Source: Pseudomonadota bacterium
Lineage (GTDB): Bacteria > Pseudomonadota > Alphaproteobacteria > Rhizobiales > Rhizobiaceae
Assembly: GCA_020161665.1 (NCBI GenBank)
Contig: JAIUPA010000031.1
Location: 1 to 64,000, forward strand
Length of the DNA stretch: 64,000 nucleotides
Direction of reading: 5' to 3'
Below are positions 11,161 to 64,000 of the stretch, one piece after another. The notes under the pieces are model-generated. The model worked only from the letters and a program-made list of their open reading frames with translations, was not told the origin of the DNA and did not search any database. Numbering within the stretch: the first letter of the stretch is position 1; each line of letters starts with the position of its first letter. The position numbers and the translations under genes are program-made.

Positions 11161-11823
11161 ATGACAAAATCGACTGCGCCGGGCGAAGTGTTGCCGTTCC
11201 AGAATCCGCATGCGGTGCGCGACGATGCTCGCGACAACAATCTTGAACGCGCCATCGGCCATGAAGTGCGCACCCTGCGCAAGAAGCTCGGCATTACCGG
11301 CGCAGACCTTGCCTCGGCCACCGGCATTTCGCTGGGCATGCTGTCCAAGATCGAAAACGGCAATACCTCGCCGTCTCTCACCACGCTGCAATCGCTGGCG
11401 CAGGCGTTGGGCGTGCCGGTGACGGCCTTCTTCCGCCGTTTTGAGGAACAGCACGACGCCGTTTTCGTCAAGGCAGGCGAAGGCATTGAACTGGAACGCC
11501 GCGGCACGCGCGCTGGCCACCAGTACAATCTGCTCGGCCATATCGGCAACAACACCGCAGGCGTGGTGGTGGAGCCCTACCTGATCACGCTTTCGACCGG
11601 CTCGGACGTGTTCCCGACCTTCCAGCATGAAGGTCTCGAATTCCTCTATATGCTCGAAGGCGAAGTGCAGTATCGCCACGGCGACAAGCTTTACCCGATG
11701 GAGCCGGGCGACAGCCTGTTCTTCGATGCCGATGCACCGCACGGCCCGGAAGTGCTGACCAAGCTGCCCGCCCGCTTCCTGTCGATCATCTGTTATCCGG
11801 AAAAAGCGCGCAGCCGCCGCTAA
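11161..11823 (+). CDS. XRE-family regulator with cupin sensor domain
   Basis: A 220-residue regulator. Residues ~28-85 are an HTH_XRE fold (IGHEVRTLRKKLGITGADLASATGISLGMLSKIENG); residues ~135-210 are a cupin (HEGLEFLYMLEGEVQYRHGD ... MEPGDSLFFDADAPHGPE) that should bind a small ligand or metal. This PuuR-like architecture usually represses amine or amino-acid catabolism. Its position directly ahead of the Amt-Tdm block suggests it controls methylated-amine genes (inference). Confidence 0.88.
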   Translation: MTKSTAPGEVLPFQNPHAVRDDARDNNLERAIGHEVRTLRKKLGITGADLASATGISLGMLSKIENGNTSPSLTTLQSLAQALGVPVTAFFRRFEEQHDAVFVKAGEGIELERRGTRAGHQYNLLGHIGNNTAGVVVEPYLITLSTGSDVFPTFQHEGLEFLYMLEGEVQYRHGDKLYPMEPGDSLFFDADAPHGPEVLTKLPARFLSIICYPEKARSRR

Positions 11824-12089: not shown

Positions 12090-13433
12090 ATGAATGAAAC
12101 GACCACGGATGTGGCGGCCAAGATAGAAGCGCTGGAAAAGTCGCTTGCCATGGCCAACACGCTGAACTCCGAAATCTTTTACTGGTGGTGCACCGCGCTG
12201 ATGGTGGCCATTCACGCTGGCTTCCTGGCCTATGAAATGGGTGCGTCGCGTTCCAAGAATGCGCTGGCCTCGGGCATCAAGAATATCCTTGCCTTCGCTT
12301 TCATCGTTCCCACCTTTTATTATGTCGGCTGGTGGATTTATCTCGCTTTCCCGACCGGCCTCACCATTTCGGAAGCCGCATCCGCTGGCCTTCCGTGGTC
12401 TGCCAATATGGGTCCGAACGTCTCCGACCACGCCTCGGGTGTGTTCTATGCAGCCTTCACGCTCTTTGCCGCCACGACGGCCTCGATCATGTCCGGTTCG
12501 GCCATCGAGCGTATCCGTATTTCCGGCTTCACCATTCTCGCCGTCATTCTCGGCTCGGTGGTGTGGAACCTCGGTGCGGCCTGGGGCTGGCATCCGCAGG
12601 GCTGGCTGACGACCAAGTTCGGCCTGCACGATACGGCGGCTGCCGGTTGCGTGCACACGGTTGCCGGCTTCTTCACGCTCGGCGTTCTGATCAACCTCGG
12701 CCCGCGCATCGGTCGCTACAATGCCGATGGCTCGATCAACGAAATCACCGGCCATTCCATGCCGATGTCGCTGATCGGCCTGATGCTCATCGTCATGGGC
12801 TTCTTCGGCTTCCTCGGCGGCTGCATCATCTACACGGCTGACGGCTGGACGACGATCTATAACACGCCGACCAACCTTTCGGCCTTCGCCTTCAACACGC
12901 TTCTCGGCGTGGCGGGTGGCATGATCGGCACCTACCTCGTGACCCGCGATCCGTTCTGGATGATGTCCGGCGCGCTCGTTGGCGTCATTGCCTCCGGCTC
13001 GGGCCTTGATGTCTACTATCCGGGACTAACCTTCATCAACTCGTTCCTGGCCGGTTGCGTCATTCCGAAGGTCAACGACATCATCATCCGCAAGTTCAAG
13101 ATCGATGATGCCGTGGGCGCGGTTGCCGTGCATGGTTTCACCGGCATCTGGGGCCTCGTCTCGATGGGTGTTCTGGCCGCCGGTTATCCGAACATCGAAG
13201 GTCCTGCCGTCTCCCTGATGGGTCAGGTTGCCTCGGCCATCGTCTTCGTGCTGCTCGGCTTCATCCCCGGTTACGTCTTCTCCTTCGCGCTGAAGATGGT
13301 CGGCCTGCTGCGCGCCAGCCCGGATGCCGAACTGGTCGGTCTCGACAAGACGGAAGTTCCGGCTCTTGCCTATCCGGAATCGCATATTCCGGCCTTCGCC
13401 CAGCCTGAACCGCACGTTTCGCCTGCCGAATAA
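12090..13433 (+). CDS. Ammonium/methylammonium transporter (Amt family)
   Basis: A 447-residue inner-membrane channel with 11 predicted helices. Both pore histidines of the Amt twin-His site are kept: GCVHTVAGFFTLG in helix 5 and VAVHGFTGIWGL near helix 10. ATG at 12090 follows TTGGGGA; the open frame upstream to 11880 overlaps the preceding terminator and is rejected. Unlike the nitrogen-regulated amtB there is no adjacent glnK. Instead it lies in front of a small membrane protein and Tdm, so methylated amines or released ammonium are plausible substrates (inference). It has a hydrophilic, proline-rich C-terminal tail (residues ~415-447). Confidence 0.88.
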   Translation: MNETTTDVAAKIEALEKSLAMANTLNSEIFYWWCTALMVAIHAGFLAYEMGASRSKNALASGIKNILAFAFIVPTFYYVGWWIYLAFPTGLTISEAASAGLPWSANMGPNVSDHASGVFYAAFTLFAATTASIMSGSAIERIRISGFTILAVILGSVVWNLGAAWGWHPQGWLTTKFGLHDTAAAGCVHTVAGFFTLGVLINLGPRIGRYNADGSINEITGHSMPMSLIGLMLIVMGFFGFLGGCIIYTADGWTTIYNTPTNLSAFAFNTLLGVAGGMIGTYLVTRDPFWMMSGALVGVIASGSGLDVYYPGLTFINSFLAGCVIPKVNDIIIRKFKIDDAVGAVAVHGFTGIWGLVSMGVLAAGYPNIEGPAVSLMGQVASAIVFVLLGFIPGYVFSFALKMVGLLRASPDAELVGLDKTEVPALAYPESHIPAFAQPEPHVSPAE

Positions 13434-13456
13434 GCCACGTTTTCAAGGAGAACACG

Positions 13457-13633
13457 ATGAACACTGCTCCGATCACCACCTGGGAAGGCGTGGAAGCCTA
13501 TTTCACGCTGGCCGACAAGCCCGCCACGCTGATGATCATCTGCGCGCTCGGCGTTCTGGCCGGTGCCTACACGCTGGTCAGCATGATCCGGCATGAAAAT
13601 GCCTGCTACAATTACACCAAGAAGAAGCACTGA
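13457..13633 (+). CDS. 58-residue single-span membrane protein between amt and tdm
   Basis: A short gene with an AAGGAG ribosome-binding site at 13445-13450, ATG at 13457 and TGA at 13631-13633, starting 23 bp after the Amt stop. The product has a polar N-terminus (MNTAPITTWEGVEAYF), one hydrophobic helix (~residues 24-43, TLMIICALGVLAGAYTLVSM) and a short basic tail (YTKKKH). I do not recognise a family. The tight spacing, good translation start and codon use like its neighbours support a real gene, perhaps an accessory subunit of the transporter (inference). Confidence 0.78.
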   Translation: MNTAPITTWEGVEAYFTLADKPATLMIICALGVLAGAYTLVSMIRHENACYNYTKKKH

Positions 13634-13651
13634 GTTCCCACCCGGTGCTAT

Positions 13652-13688
13652 TCTGGCCTCCCGGCTTCACGGTCGGGGGGCTTTTTGA
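13652..13688 (+). terminator. Probable terminator after the small membrane protein
   Basis: An imperfect GC-rich stem (GCCTCCCGG..GGTCGGGGGGC) is followed by TTTTT. It separates the amt-small protein unit from tdm. Confidence 0.65.
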
Positions 13689-13767
13689 TGGGCGAAACGA
13701 TGTTGAGCGGCCCTCTTCACAACTATTTTAAGTAAATTTATTTTCACCTTAGGCAAGTTTTTCTTTA

Positions 13768-13831: not shown

Positions 13832-16201
13832 ATGCAGGATCGAGAGACGTCTGCGCTTCTGGCGCGACCCGTTCCCGGCAGTATTCTGCGTTATCCGAGC
13901 CGCCCGGCTTTGCCCGCCAATGTTCAGCGCTACAAGGTGCGTGGCGGCGGATCACTGACCATTCCTGTGGCGGCTGGCGATCATGTGACGCTGAAGGACA
14001 GCGAAGGCATGCAGGCCTGTGAGCTGACCTTCCTTTCGCCGGATGGCCGCTTTTCCGATCATGGTCTTGGCACATCCTTCACCTCGTCCGCCGATGGGTT
14101 GAAGGCCATTCTGGCCGCCCGTGATGAAAGTGCGGCCCGCGTGCGTCTGGCCATTGCCCGGCGCGGTGGTGATCTGGCAACCGTCCGCGCTCTTCGCCTG
14201 TTTGGCGGCCAGTCACGCCCGGGTGAGACGGCGGAATTTACGGTTCAGGCCGATGGTCTTTTGATCATCGCCGCCCCCGGCAACAGCATGACGCCGGACG
14301 AGCAGGCCACGCTCACCGAAATCGAAGTGCGCGTGCGCCGGACCAAGATCGAGCGCAGCTATGAAAGCCTGCTGCCGGAGCCGCTGGCCGACCCGCTGCA
14401 GGACATGCGCATTCGTGCCGCGACCGCCAAGGCCTACTTTGTGCGCGCCGGTGAATATATCCAGATCCTTGATGTTCAGGGCCGCCAGTGCACCGACTTT
14501 CAGGCCTTTTCGGCCCGCAAGCTGGACAAGGGGCTGGAACTGGCGCTCGATTCCACCGTCACGCGCACGCTGCTCGGGCGCAGCTACCCGACGCCCGGCC
14601 TGCCCTCCAAGGCCTTTGACCGGGATTTCGAGCCGCTGGTCGAGATCGTGCAGGATACGGTGGGCCGTCACGACGCCTTCGCGACCGCCTGCAACGCGCG
14701 CTATTATGACGACATGGGTTATCCGGGCCACATCAACTGCACGGATAATTTCAACGGCGAACTCGACCCCTACGGCATCAAGCCGCGCAAGGGTTGGGAG
14801 GCGCTGAACTTCTTCTACAACACCCATGTCGATCATCATAACCAGCTTTACCTCGACGAGCCGTGGTCACGGCCGGGCGATTATGTGCTGATGAAGGCGC
14901 TGACGGACATTGTCTGTGTCTCGTCGTCCTGCCCCGATGACATCGACGCCGCCAATGGATGGGACCCGACGGACATCCATGTGCGCACCTATTCCGCTGA
15001 AAAGACGTTCACGAGAGCTGTAGCCTATCGCATGACCCCAGATGCTGACGCCGAACTGACGCGGGAAACCGCCTTCCACTCCAGCCTTGCCCCGATGACG
15101 CGCGATTTCACCGAATATCGCGGCTACTGGCTGGCCAACCGCTTTGCCACCAGCGGGCCGATCGAGGAATATTGGGCGTGCCGCGAGGCGGCTGCCGTGA
15201 TCGACCTTTCGCCGCTGCGCAAATTCGAAATCACCGGGCCGGATTCCGAAGCGCTGATGCAATATTGCCTGACGCGTGACATGCGCAAGCTGACCACGGG
15301 TCAGGTCGTCTATTCGGCCATGTGCTACGAGCACGGCGGCATGGTGGATGACGGCACGCTGTTTCGCCTTGGCGACCATAATTTCCGCTGGATCGGCGGC
15401 GACGACTATTCCGGCGTGTGGTTGCGCAAGGTGGCGGAAGAAAAGGGTTTTCACGCCTGGGTTCGCTCCTCCACCGACCAGCTGCACAATATCGCCGTGC
15501 AGGGGCCGAAGAGCCGCGACATCCTGAAAGACCTATTCTGGACCGCTCCGCGCCAGCCAACCGTTGAAGAACTGGGTTGGTTCCGCTTCACCATCGGTCG
15601 CATCGGCGGCTTTGAAGGCGTGCCGGTCGTCATCTCGCGCACGGGCTATACCGGCGAGCTTGGCTATGAAATCTTCTGCCATCCGAAGGATGCTCCGGCG
15701 GTGTTCAAGGCCGTTTACGAGGCGGGCGAACCGCATGGCCTGAAGCCCATGGGCCTTCAGGCGCTCGACATGCTGCGCATCGAAGCGGGGCTGATCTTTG
15801 CCGGTTACGATTTCGACGACCAGACGGACCCGTTCGAGGCGGGCATCGGCTTTACCGTGCCGCTGAAATCCAAGCAGGACGACTTCATCGGTCGCGAGGC
15901 GCTTTTGAAACGCAAGGAACATCCGCGCTGGAAATTCGTCGGCCTCGACATTGCCGCCAACGAGACGGTTGGCCATGGCGATTGCCTGCATATCGGCCGC
16001 GCCCAGATCGGCGTCGTCACGTCTTCCACCCACTCGCCGTTCCTCGGCAAGAACATCGCGCTGGCGCGTGTCGACGTGACCCATGCCGCCGTGGGCACGG
16101 AAATCGAGGTGGGCAAGCTTGACGGCCAGCAGAAGCGTATTCCCGCCGTCATCGTGCCGCTGTCGCATTACGACCCGGAAAAGACGCGCCCGCGCTCCTG
16201 A
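13832..16201 (+). CDS. tdm: Trimethylamine N-oxide demethylase (DUF1989-GcvT fusion)
   Basis: A 789-residue cytoplasmic enzyme with the architecture known for Tdm: an N-terminal region with DUF1989 (residues ~1-400) fused to a GcvT/T-protein tetrahydrofolate-binding domain (~415-789). Tdm splits trimethylamine N-oxide into dimethylamine and formaldehyde. The DUF1989 part shows GRQCTDFQAF (C220), GHINCTDNFNGELDPYG (C303) and CVSSSCPDDIDAANGWDPTD (C362, C367), which probably supply the reported zinc site. The GcvT part shows REAAAVIDLSPLRKFEITGPD and SRTGYTGELGYEIF. GAGAGGAGG precedes the ATG. Context (Amt, and tmm and a dimethylamine oxygenase 45 kb away) supports Tdm rather than dimethylglycine or sarcosine demethylases. 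Confidence 0.85.
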   Translation: MQDRETSALLARPVPGSILRYPSRPALPANVQRYKVRGGGSLTIPVAAGDHVTLKDSEGMQACELTFLSPDGRFSDHGLGTSFTSSADGLKAILAARDESAARVRLAIARRGGDLATVRALRLFGGQSRPGETAEFTVQADGLLIIAAPGNSMTPDEQATLTEIEVRVRRTKIERSYESLLPEPLADPLQDMRIRAATAKAYFVRAGEYIQILDVQGRQCTDFQAFSARKLDKGLELALDSTVTRTLLGRSYPTPGLPSKAFDRDFEPLVEIVQDTVGRHDAFATACNARYYDDMGYPGHINCTDNFNGELDPYGIKPRKGWEALNFFYNTHVDHHNQLYLDEPWSRPGDYVLMKALTDIVCVSSSCPDDIDAANGWDPTDIHVRTYSAEKTFTRAVAYRMTPDADAELTRETAFHSSLAPMTRDFTEYRGYWLANRFATSGPIEEYWACREAAAVIDLSPLRKFEITGPDSEALMQYCLTRDMRKLTTGQVVYSAMCYEHGGMVDDGTLFRLGDHNFRWIGGDDYSGVWLRKVAEEKGFHAWVRSSTDQLHNIAVQGPKSRDILKDLFWTAPRQPTVEELGWFRFTIGRIGGFEGVPVVISRTGYTGELGYEIFCHPKDAPAVFKAVYEAGEPHGLKPMGLQALDMLRIEAGLIFAGYDFDDQTDPFEAGIGFTVPLKSKQDDFIGREALLKRKEHPRWKFVGLDIAANETVGHGDCLHIGRAQIGVVTSSTHSPFLGKNIALARVDVTHAAVGTEIEVGKLDGQQKRIPAVIVPLSHYDPEKTRPRS

Positions 16202-61145: not shown

Positions 61146-62486
61146 TCAGTTCTTGAGATAGGCTTCCATGGAGTCGTCCAGCGCATCCTTCCACGGGGTG
61201 TGGTGGATGGGGGCCATGGTGCCGGTCATCAGCGACTTGTAGCAGTTGTTGCGGAAGCCCATGATGTCGTCGATCTTGTGCTGCTTCCACTCGAAGAAGG
61301 CCTTGCAGGCACCATCGACGTCGAAGCTCGGATAGTCGGTATCGGCGATCAGTTCCTTGACGTAAGCGCCCTGATACTTGATCGCGTACTTCACGTCGTC
61401 GGAGGCTTCTTCGCGGGCTTCGCGCTCGGCCACGTCATCCAGCAGAACCTGCTTGTCAGCCGGCACGTCGATGCGGCCGAGGATGATGTCACGGACATAC
61501 CAGGCCTGCGCGTCGAACATGTTGAAGGTGAACCACTGGTCCTGCATGCCGAGGAAGAACATCTTCGGATTGTGGACATAGACGACGCCCTTGTAGAGGT
61601 CGTGCGTGGCCAGACGGTTCTTCGTCTTCAGGCGCAGGTCATCCGGCAGGAACGGGAAGTAGTGCTTGTAGCCCGTGCACAGGATGATGGCATCGACCTG
61701 CTTGGACGTGCCGTCCTTGAAGAAGGCGGTCTTGCCTTCGACGCGCTCAAGCGCGGGCTTTTCTTCCCAGTTGTCCGGCCAGTTGAAGCCCATCGGAGCG
61801 GAGCGGTAGGAGGTCGTGACGGTCTTGGCGCCATACTTCCAGCACTGCGAACCAATGTCTTCAGCAGAGTAGGAAGCGCCCACCAGCAGAACGTCCTGAC
61901 CGGCGAATTCGCGGGCGTCACGGAAATCGTGCGCGTGGACGATGCGGCCATAGAACTGGTCGAAGCCCGGATATTCCGGAACGTTCGGCGAAGAGAAATG
62001 GCCCGAGGCGCAGATGACGTAATCGAAGCGGTCCTTGGTGACCTTGTCGGCCACCATGTCGTGAACCGTCACGGTAAAATCATTGGTGGCTTCATTGTAC
62101 TCGACCCAGCGAACGACGGTGGAGAAGCGGATCCAGTCGCGCACGTTGGCCTTCTTCACACGGCCTTCGATGTAATCCATCATCACGGCGCGCGGCGGGT
62201 AGGAGGCGATCTGCTTGCCGAAATGCTCTTCGAAGGAGTAGTCGGCGAATTCGAGACCTTCCTTCGGACCGTTGGTCCACAGGTAGCGATACATGGAGCA
62301 ATGAACCGGCTCGCCGTTTTCATCGACGCCGGTGCGCCAGGTGTAGTTCCACAGGCCACCCCAATCGGACTGCTTTTCGAAGCAGACGATTTCCGGGATT
62401 TCGGCACCCTTCATCTTGGCGGACTGGAAGGCGCGCAGAGCCGCGAGGCCGGACGGACCAGCCCCGATTACAGCAATTTTCGTCAT
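61146..62486 (-). CDS. tmm: Trimethylamine monooxygenase
   Basis: A 446-residue flavin monooxygenase that oxidises trimethylamine to its N-oxide with NADPH and O2. FAD loop [48 protein letters not shown] fingerprint [11 protein letters not shown] followed by NADPH loop [23 protein letters not shown], and [15 protein letters not shown]. These segments are characteristic of bacterial Tmm rather than Baeyer-Villiger enzymes. Its product is the substrate of Tdm at 13832-16201. Confidence 0.92.
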
Positions 62487-62532
62487 TTTCGTTCCCCTTT
62501 TGGTGAGTTGAGCGGTTCCGTTTCAGCGGGTT

Positions 62533-62595
62533 GGAAAACGCTCTATCTCTTTGCTTTCTCGCAATTCCGGTCGGAAAGCCGCAAAGTCGCGCCTT
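62533..62595. repeat. Rhizobiales AGAGCATTT-type repeat, copy 3
   Basis: On the minus strand: GCGACTTTGCGGCTTTCCGA, then CCGGAATTGCGAGAAAGCAA and AGAGATAGAGCGTTTTCC, matching the second half of the common element. It lies between tmm and the DUF3445 gene. Confidence 0.75.
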
Positions 62596-62633
62596 TCCGG
62601 GAATGGTTGGTTCCGGTTCAAGGCTCTACGGTC

Positions 62634-63674
62634 TTAATCCGGGAAAGTGCCAGCGCTGGTGGGAGCGCCGTCATCATACTTCGACAGCCACTCAACAGTG
62701 ACGTCGCGGTAGCGGGTAATCCCCTTGTAATCGACAAGCTCGGTCGGCAGCGAGCCGAGCACGCGGTGGAAGCGGTTGGCCCACTTCGGCACCGTCACCA
62801 GCTCGCTCATGTTCATGAGGTAGCAGCGGATGACGAACAGGAGAGCATTGGAGCGCGGCAGACGCCACAGCGTCTGCACCTCGACGCGAAGGTGAACCTT
62901 GTCGCCGACATTCTCGGGCGTAACCGTCGTGCGGTCCTTGCCCCATTTCGGGTAGTTTTCCGGGCTGGTGTCGAGACGCGGGTTGATCGTCATCGTCCAG
63001 TTGTAACGGCGGATCGGCTTGCCGAGCTGCATGTTGAGCAGGAACTTCAGCGCGCGTTCGAATACACCCTGCTGGTGGGCAAGCGGCACCGGGCCATGCC
63101 ATTCCATGAAGTTCATGCCCACGTCGAAATCGAGCGACCAGTCGGCCTGGGTGGTGACCATGCCGGCATCCATCCAGAGATTGTTGTCACGCTGGTCGAC
63201 GATGGTGATATCGCCCTGCGTCTGGCGGGAGATATATTCAAGCGGCTCCATCGGCAGCGTGGTCAGATCACCGAAGGTGAACGTGTCATCAATGCCGAGC
63301 GGGCGGTTGATCCAGCGCCAGCGGTCGCCGTTCTTTTCCAGCGTGAAGTGCTCGGGATAACCGGCCGCCTGCTGTTCCATCAAAAGTTCCAGCGTATCCC
63401 ACTGGGCCTGCATCATGTGCGGCAGGGCCTGATAGCGCAGCGGATCGGCTTTCAGAACCAGCGCGCGGTCGGCCATTTCCGAGATGTAGTGCTCATCCAC
63501 GTCGATGAGGTTCTCGAACACCGTGCCAGCGGCACCCTTCACATGCGGCTCCATGTTGACGGAGTACATGTAGTTGTCGTCCGGGAACGGGAACGGAAAG
63601 CGCCGGATGTTTTCCGGGCTGTTGCGATAGGTGAAGTCGTCGCGGAAGGTTTCCTGCCGGAATACAATCGCCAT
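62634..63674 (-). CDS. dmmA: DUF3445 heme-dependent oxidative N-demethylase subunit (dimethylamine monooxygenase)
   Basis: A 346-residue DUF3445 protein (FPFPFPDDNYMYSVNMEPH; LVLKADPLRYQALPHMMQAQWDTL; WDTL..MEQQ; HLRVEVQTLWRLPRSNALLFVIRCYLM). The family is known as heme-dependent oxidative N-demethylase and includes a subunit of bacterial dimethylamine monooxygenase, which makes methylamine and formaldehyde. ATG at 63674 is spaced 9 nt from AGGAG. The assignment as DmmA is supported by adjacent tmm and the ferredoxin gene; I am less sure of the exact subunit letter. Confidence 0.82.
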   Translation of the reverse strand: MAIVFRQETFRDDFTYRNSPENIRRFPFPFPDDNYMYSVNMEPHVKGAAGTVFENLIDVDEHYISEMADRALVLKADPLRYQALPHMMQAQWDTLELLMEQQAAGYPEHFTLEKNGDRWRWINRPLGIDDTFTFGDLTTLPMEPLEYISRQTQGDITIVDQRDNNLWMDAGMVTTQADWSLDFDVGMNFMEWHGPVPLAHQQGVFERALKFLLNMQLGKPIRRYNWTMTINPRLDTSPENYPKWGKDRTTVTPENVGDKVHLRVEVQTLWRLPRSNALLFVIRCYLMNMSELVTVPKWANRFHRVLGSLPTELVDYKGITRYRDVTVEWLSKYDDGAPTSAGTFPD

Positions 63675-63742
63675 TTCCATCATCTCCTGTCTTGGGTGCG
63701 GCTTCGGGCGGTTGGGAGGTCCGCCCGGCACACCGGGACGCG

Positions 63743-64000
63743 TTAGAGTTCGAGTGCCACGCGCTGCCCCTCGAAACGGGACACGCAGATCATGATCTTC
63801 TTGCCGGACGCCTTTTCGTCGTCCGAAAGGAAGAGGTCATTGTGGAGGAGGATGCCTTCGCAGGCCGCGACCCCCGTTTCGCACTGGCCGCAGGCACCGC
63901 CGCGGCAGAGGTAAGGCGCATCCACGCCGGCAGCTTCCAGCGCTTCCAGAATGCTCTCGTGCTCGCCAACCGCCACCGTCTTGCCCGAGCGCGTCAGTTC
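63743..64000 (-). CDS. [2Fe-2S] ferredoxin domain, C-terminal end of a reductase subunit (cut by window end)
   Basis: Only the last ~85 residues are in the window; the frame stays open to base 64000. Plant-type ferredoxin ligands: LCRGGACGQCETG (three Cys) and ICVSR (fourth Cys). A C-terminal ferredoxin like this is typical of phthalate-dioxygenase-reductase-type proteins. It is very likely the electron-transfer subunit of the dimethylamine monooxygenase, upstream in the same operon. Confidence 0.85.
   Translation of the reverse strand, partial: ELTRSGKTVAVGEHESILEALEAAGVDAPYLCRGGACGQCETGVAACEGILLHNDLFLSDDEKASGKKIMICVSRFEGQRVALEL

Follow-up and report, generated by a model that had tools for sequence, protein, structure and literature searches.

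In a 64,000-nucleotide stretch of DNA from an alphaproteobacterium of the Rhizobiaceae (the window), a short open reading frame (ORF) lies between an ammonium transporter gene (amt) and the trimethylamine N-oxide demethylase gene tdm (Table 1). Its position raises the question whether it is a gene at all and, if it is, which of the neighbouring proteins its product serves. The initial annotation had described the ORF, a ribosome-binding site, a single hydrophobic helix, a charged C-terminus and a gap of 23 bp (23 nt from the Amt stop codon to the start of the small ORF), all of which are seen in the sequence. The small protein consists of an aromatic, acidic N-terminal segment, one transmembrane helix, an HEN motif and a basic tail, with a predicted N-out/C-in topology. 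Its best 19-residue segment, residues 26-44, has a mean Kyte-Doolittle value of 2.18, and RHENACYNYTKKKH comes next. When modelled alone with AlphaFold, the protein has two helices, a short one near the N-terminus (residues 9-20) and a long one (residues 22-57), at a pLDDT of 78. No family in Pfam or NCBIfam matches at an E-value of 1 or better, and the small protein is outside every curated family of these two collections. Solved structures searched with the small-protein profile gave matches at chance level only (best E 0.17), an Rfam scan of the window gave no match, and searches of open-licence PMC papers brought up no description of the small protein.

Table 1. Features of the window around the small ORF.
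Feature	Position	Strand	Basis and remarks
XRE-cupin regulator, upstream of amt	11161..11823	+	family matches; relatives near several other loci
divergent Amt, 447 aa	12090..13433	+	PF00909 match; below TIGR00836 and TIGR03644 cut-offs
Shine-Dalgarno AAGGAG of the small ORF	13445..13450	+	sequence; spacer 6 nt
small protein, 58 aa, ATG start	13457..13633	+	sequence, ORF list
intrinsic-terminator-like hairpin	13655..13682	+	12 pairs, then T-run
weak sigma-70-like promoter match, between hairpin and tdm	13716..13744	+	1 found, 0.7 expected by chance
tdm, trimethylamine N-oxide demethylase	13832..16201	+	NF053776 1257.8 bits, cut-off 1100

The small ORF is a real protein-coding gene. It is present in one copy in the window's own genome and, by tblastn, in 9 of 199 genomes of the family, and the small-protein profile matches 10 of 387 genomes of the class (Alphaproteobacteria) and 10 of 397 of the phylum, with the window's genome counted each time. 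In a named genome collection, tblastn found it on nine contigs, from genera that include Allorhizobium, Ectorhizobium, Peteryoungia, Methylobrevis, Thalassospira, Pseudomaricurvus and Jiella; one of the nine, L010, encodes gene products identical to those of the window and may be the window's own genome. After removal of duplicates, the set of loci of the window's type (type 1) comprises 30 distinct loci, L010 included. All 30 have an ATG start preceded by a Shine-Dalgarno-like 4-mer, compared with 807 of 8135 background ATGs. Relatives of the small protein occur in Alpha- and Gammaproteobacteria, and an alignment of 14 sequences has ten invariant columns. The pN/pS of the ORF is 0.12-0.28 in nine close pairs, which indicates purifying selection, and 0.40 and 0.52 in two more distant pairs. 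Short as the ORF is, a chance or non-coding origin is practically inconceivable and refuted by this conservation, namely the low pN/pS of the close pairs, the Shine-Dalgarno-like motif at every type-1 locus and the residues that are invariant across Alpha- and Gammaproteobacteria. The window protein has the marks of the type-1 family, a W-E/D-G-x-x-A-Y-F-T segment, one helix, H-E after the helix and a place directly behind a divergent Amt; some members deviate from these at single positions. Among viral contigs, 43 pattern matches were obtained, none of which was confirmed.

The suggestion that gene callers would miss the ORF holds only in part. In a check of plasmids, 74 records matched and eight were opened (L019, L071-L077). 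Seven of them have an intact amt, and in each a 'hypothetical protein' of 58-71 aa is annotated behind the transporter. In the eighth, amt is broken and the small ORF is there but unannotated.

The transporter encoded upstream is a member of the Amt/Mep/Rh family by its PF00909 score of 190.2 bits (gathering score 23.2), and it stays below the cut-offs of both the canonical family TIGR00836 (200.9 against 343.3 bits) and the marine subtype TIGR03644 (178 against 514 bits). A conserved homologue of the small ORF at the same place was looked for and found: in 30 of 30 type-1 loci an Amt is encoded directly upstream on the same strand, at a distance of 2-145 nt (median 33.5). For the converse test, the 387 Alphaproteobacteria drawn before were searched with the window Amt (E 1e-100 or better). 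The divergent Amt was detected in 12 genomes, all with a short one-helix ORF behind it, which matched the profile in ten; in the other two (G460 and G236) a diverged one-helix ORF occupies the same place, followed in G236 by a Tmm gene.

As a control, PF00909 was searched in 14 genomes chosen for carrying the pair. The scores of the 45 Amts obtained split in two, with 26 canonical proteins at 292 bits or above and 19 divergent ones at 215 bits or below. A one-helix ORF of 50-79 aa, judged by eye from the ORF listing, lies directly behind 18 of the 19 divergent and none of the 26 canonical Amts (Fisher p 1e-11, ignoring relatedness). In one case (L111) the small ORF sits inside a longer GTG frame, and two of the canonical Amts are fused to further domains. 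The exception without a small ORF, L112, is an even more divergent Amt (109.9 bits). The small ORF proves to be a conserved, apparently obligatory companion of the divergent Amt class, and the partnership with the Amt trimer that the initial annotation had considered possible is well supported by these genome comparisons (30/30 loci and 12/12 Amts, as against 0/26 canonical).

The small proteins fall into three types: type 1, to which the window's protein belongs (n=30), type 1b (n=6) and type 2 (n=6). In all 42, lysine plus arginine is higher on the C-terminal than on the N-terminal side of the helix, and the N-terminal side is never net positive. The residue just after the helix is E in 41 and D in one, and an aromatic residue near the N-terminus is W in 39, Y in two and F in one. 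Types 1 and 2 are taken to be homologous by these common features and by position; their pairwise score is not significant. In an Amt tree of 68 rows, the canonical Amts and those accompanied by types 1b, 2 and 1 each form one side of a branch, with supports of 100/100, 100/98, 100/98 and 91/76, respectively. The small-protein types require three changes on this tree, the minimum, with no mixing between clades. Amt and small-protein distances are correlated with r 0.85, as shared inheritance alone would lead one to expect.

The surroundings of the pair were queried for Tmm (NF058570), DmmA-family (NF041259), GlnT/GmaS (TIGR03105) and Tdm (NF053776) genes, confirmed by family match. Methylated-amine genes are present in the fetched flank (6-9 kb) of 21 of the 30 type-1 loci, and at two further loci (L044 and L047) a gene that scores over the TIGR03105 cut-off lies immediately upstream; the fetched flanks of the other seven hold no methylated-amine gene. 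At one of these seven (L055, 5020-9017), the Amt-small ORF pair comes right after the ethanolamine ammonia-lyase genes eutBC, a hint that the pair may serve ammonia-releasing breakdown of amines more widely. All 12 genomes with the divergent Amt have GmaS/GlnT over cut-off, compared with 77 of 387 overall (p 2e-9, inflated by relatedness). In three genomes of 1.2-1.4 Mb, gmaS is divergent and adjoins the pair; the excerpted text of PMC3160333 has a glnT (SAR11_1316) in P. ubique. In the window itself, genes for Tmm (79% to the Thioclava Tmm) and DmmB/DmmC-like proteins are located at ~61149-64000 on the minus strand, 47 kb from the pair, and most of a TMA pathway lies within the window. The small protein is not mentioned in the available excerpts of papers that place amt near tdm or tmm, and amt is absent from the main text of a 2026 paper on TMA regulation.

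The pore residues of 42 Amts with a small protein were compared with those of 26 canonical Amts, numbered by E. coli AmtB. The twin histidines H168 and H318 as well as D160, W148, F107 and F215 are retained in all 42. The same 42 proteins carry the replacements F103A, Q104F, W212F and S219C (A122, F123, F238 and C245 in the window Amt), whereas canonical Amts have F103 in 26, Q104 in 19, W212 in 26 and S219 in 23 cases, with C at position 219 also in two. We take the changed positions to lie toward the outer face, and F103 to line the S1 ammonium-binding site as well. S1 is composed of S219, W148 and F107, and S219A raises methylammonium uptake, according to the review PMC10433425. The small protein's conserved N-terminal segment would, by prediction, lie on the outer face too, like the changed Amt positions. 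At the level of sequence, the outer substrate site of the Amts in this class is rebuilt. The nearest solved sequence to the window Amt is Ks-Amt5 (PDB 8qj3, 6eu6), which has the divergent Amt fold and the twin histidines in common with it. Ks-Amt5 has a fused histidine kinase where the window Amt has a separate small helix, and in the alignment it retains F-Q and S at the positions that are changed in the window Amt. The N-terminus of the window Amt (12090-12170) has no obvious signal peptide; it has an extension of ~20 residues with a coiled-coil-like pattern, similar in relatives, which would be outside the cell.

We consider it likely that the small protein is a dedicated N-out single-pass accessory subunit of the divergent, amine-catabolism Amt class. 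Our confidence is strong for the association with Amt, moderate for a physical subunit and weak for the details of its action. The small protein would be co-translated with Amt and insert so that the acidic, aromatic N-terminus faces outward and the basic tail inward, one copy packing beside each Amt protomer. The conserved N-terminal W-E-G-x-E-A-Y-F-T segment may then be placed near the outer vestibule, and the H-E-N motif at the inner edge of the membrane. Most likely, the Amt trimer would be stabilised in this way and the altered recruitment site completed or shaped, and the transporter could then handle methylammonium-type cations and/or recapture NH4+ freed by amine breakdown. That the small protein shapes the recruitment site is a tentative idea and the weakest link of the proposal. 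An AlphaFold model of a read-through chain of Amt and small protein from L012 reached a mean pLDDT of 53.8 and gave no usable docking.

A more far-reaching version, which we regard as doubtful, is a two-subunit methylated-ammonium transporter. Amt would have given up that portion of the NH4+ site which F103 and S219 make up, and the aromatic periplasmic segment of the small protein would rebuild the site for larger cations. If true, this would be a route for the uptake of mono- and dimethylamine in these bacteria. It would also imply, with the same doubt, a large sister class of two-subunit Amts in Alpha- and Gammaproteobacteria and possibly in small-genome marine bacteria.

Amt/Mep/Rh proteins are described as homotrimers that are controlled at most by soluble PII proteins. 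Our analysis suggests that part of the Amt family works with a second, hitherto undescribed subunit, and the homotrimer picture would have to change for an Amt clade in which the substrate site is rebuilt and a dedicated one-helix protein is always present. The clade would offer a direct test of the origin of selectivity for NH4+ versus methylated amines, and it would be a candidate transporter for those methylated-amine pathways that supply the marine cycles of nitrogen and carbon. With KdpF, CydX and AcrZ the window protein shares the design of a short single-pass protein dedicated to one membrane complex; their partners are different ones. KdpF is a single-helix subunit or modulator of a membrane complex. 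The same is stated for CydX and AcrZ in the excerpts of PMC4325964 and PMC10710835, respectively.

Instead of being a constitutive subunit, the small protein might be a regulator that gates Amt or targets it for degradation according to nitrogen or amine status, replacing GlnK; we think this unlikely. GlnK/PII of E. coli is also a small protein that is encoded with an Amt (AmtB) and acts on it, and by tblastn a GlnK-like neighbour gene is found near 9 of the 26 canonical Amts (within ~1.5 kb) and none of the 19 divergent ones (flanks mostly longer), as a replacement of GlnK would have it. In addition, the acidic residue conserved at the membrane's inner edge could touch a cytosolic factor. GlnK, however, is soluble and trimeric and blocks the pore from the cytosolic side, while the window protein is a single-pass membrane protein without a Pfam or NCBIfam match, and the Amts of its class have no adjoining glnK (0/19). 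A precedent of similar size (~60 residues) is sP36 of Methanosarcina mazei, a 61-aa partner of an ammonium transporter that binds AmtB1 and GlnK1. In the excerpted description, sP36 is cytoplasmic, is recruited to the membrane when ammonium is shifted up and acts by way of GlnK1 rather than being an integral membrane protein (PMC10714827), which sets it apart from the window protein. A regulatory role is further disfavoured by the location of the most conserved part of the small protein, the N-terminal segment, which is predicted to be outside, and the fixed position behind amt fits stoichiometric co-production better.

An improbable alternative is that the small protein serves as a membrane anchor that docks a soluble amine-catabolism enzyme such as GmaS to Amt, so that the imported amine would be channelled. 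The presence of GmaS/GlnT in all 12 genomes with the divergent Amt, in several of them only a few kb from the pair, would suit an anchor, but type-1 members mostly have a short cytosolic tail, and no part of the protein is less conserved.

The small protein was also proposed in the initial annotation to be a coupling factor to Tdm. The hairpin behind the small ORF (folding energy of 13634-13690, -23.7 kcal/mol; z -2.58), together with the weak promoter match in front of tdm, suggests from sequence that amt and the small ORF are a unit of their own; they probably form one transcription unit, with tdm separate. Only 13 of the 30 type-1 loci encode a full-length Tdm in the fetched flank, in varying order and strand. 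Although tdm comes next after the small ORF in the window, as it does in a few relatives, the intervening terminator-like hairpin of 12 pairs and the scarcity and variable arrangement of Tdm elsewhere make a coupling of Amt to Tdm very improbable. Upstream of amt, the best sigma-54-like sequence in the window agrees in 6 of 12 letters, no better than in shuffled sequences; a match of at least 10 of 12 letters is present in 8 of the 30 type-1 loci.

On plasmid p1 of Aminobacter niigataensis DMFA1 (L078, 3019-4618), a more distant, 29%-identical Amt lies inside a branched-chain-type ABC transporter cluster. The ORF behind it, 64 aa long and hydrophobic, differs in sequence from the small protein and is of uncertain kinship to it. 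Genome G022 has L041, L112 and L111, three divergent Amts that differ in type, within 22 kb on its contig 4 (3.279-3.301 Mb), the first of them, L041, near Tmm, TmoX-like and Tdm genes.
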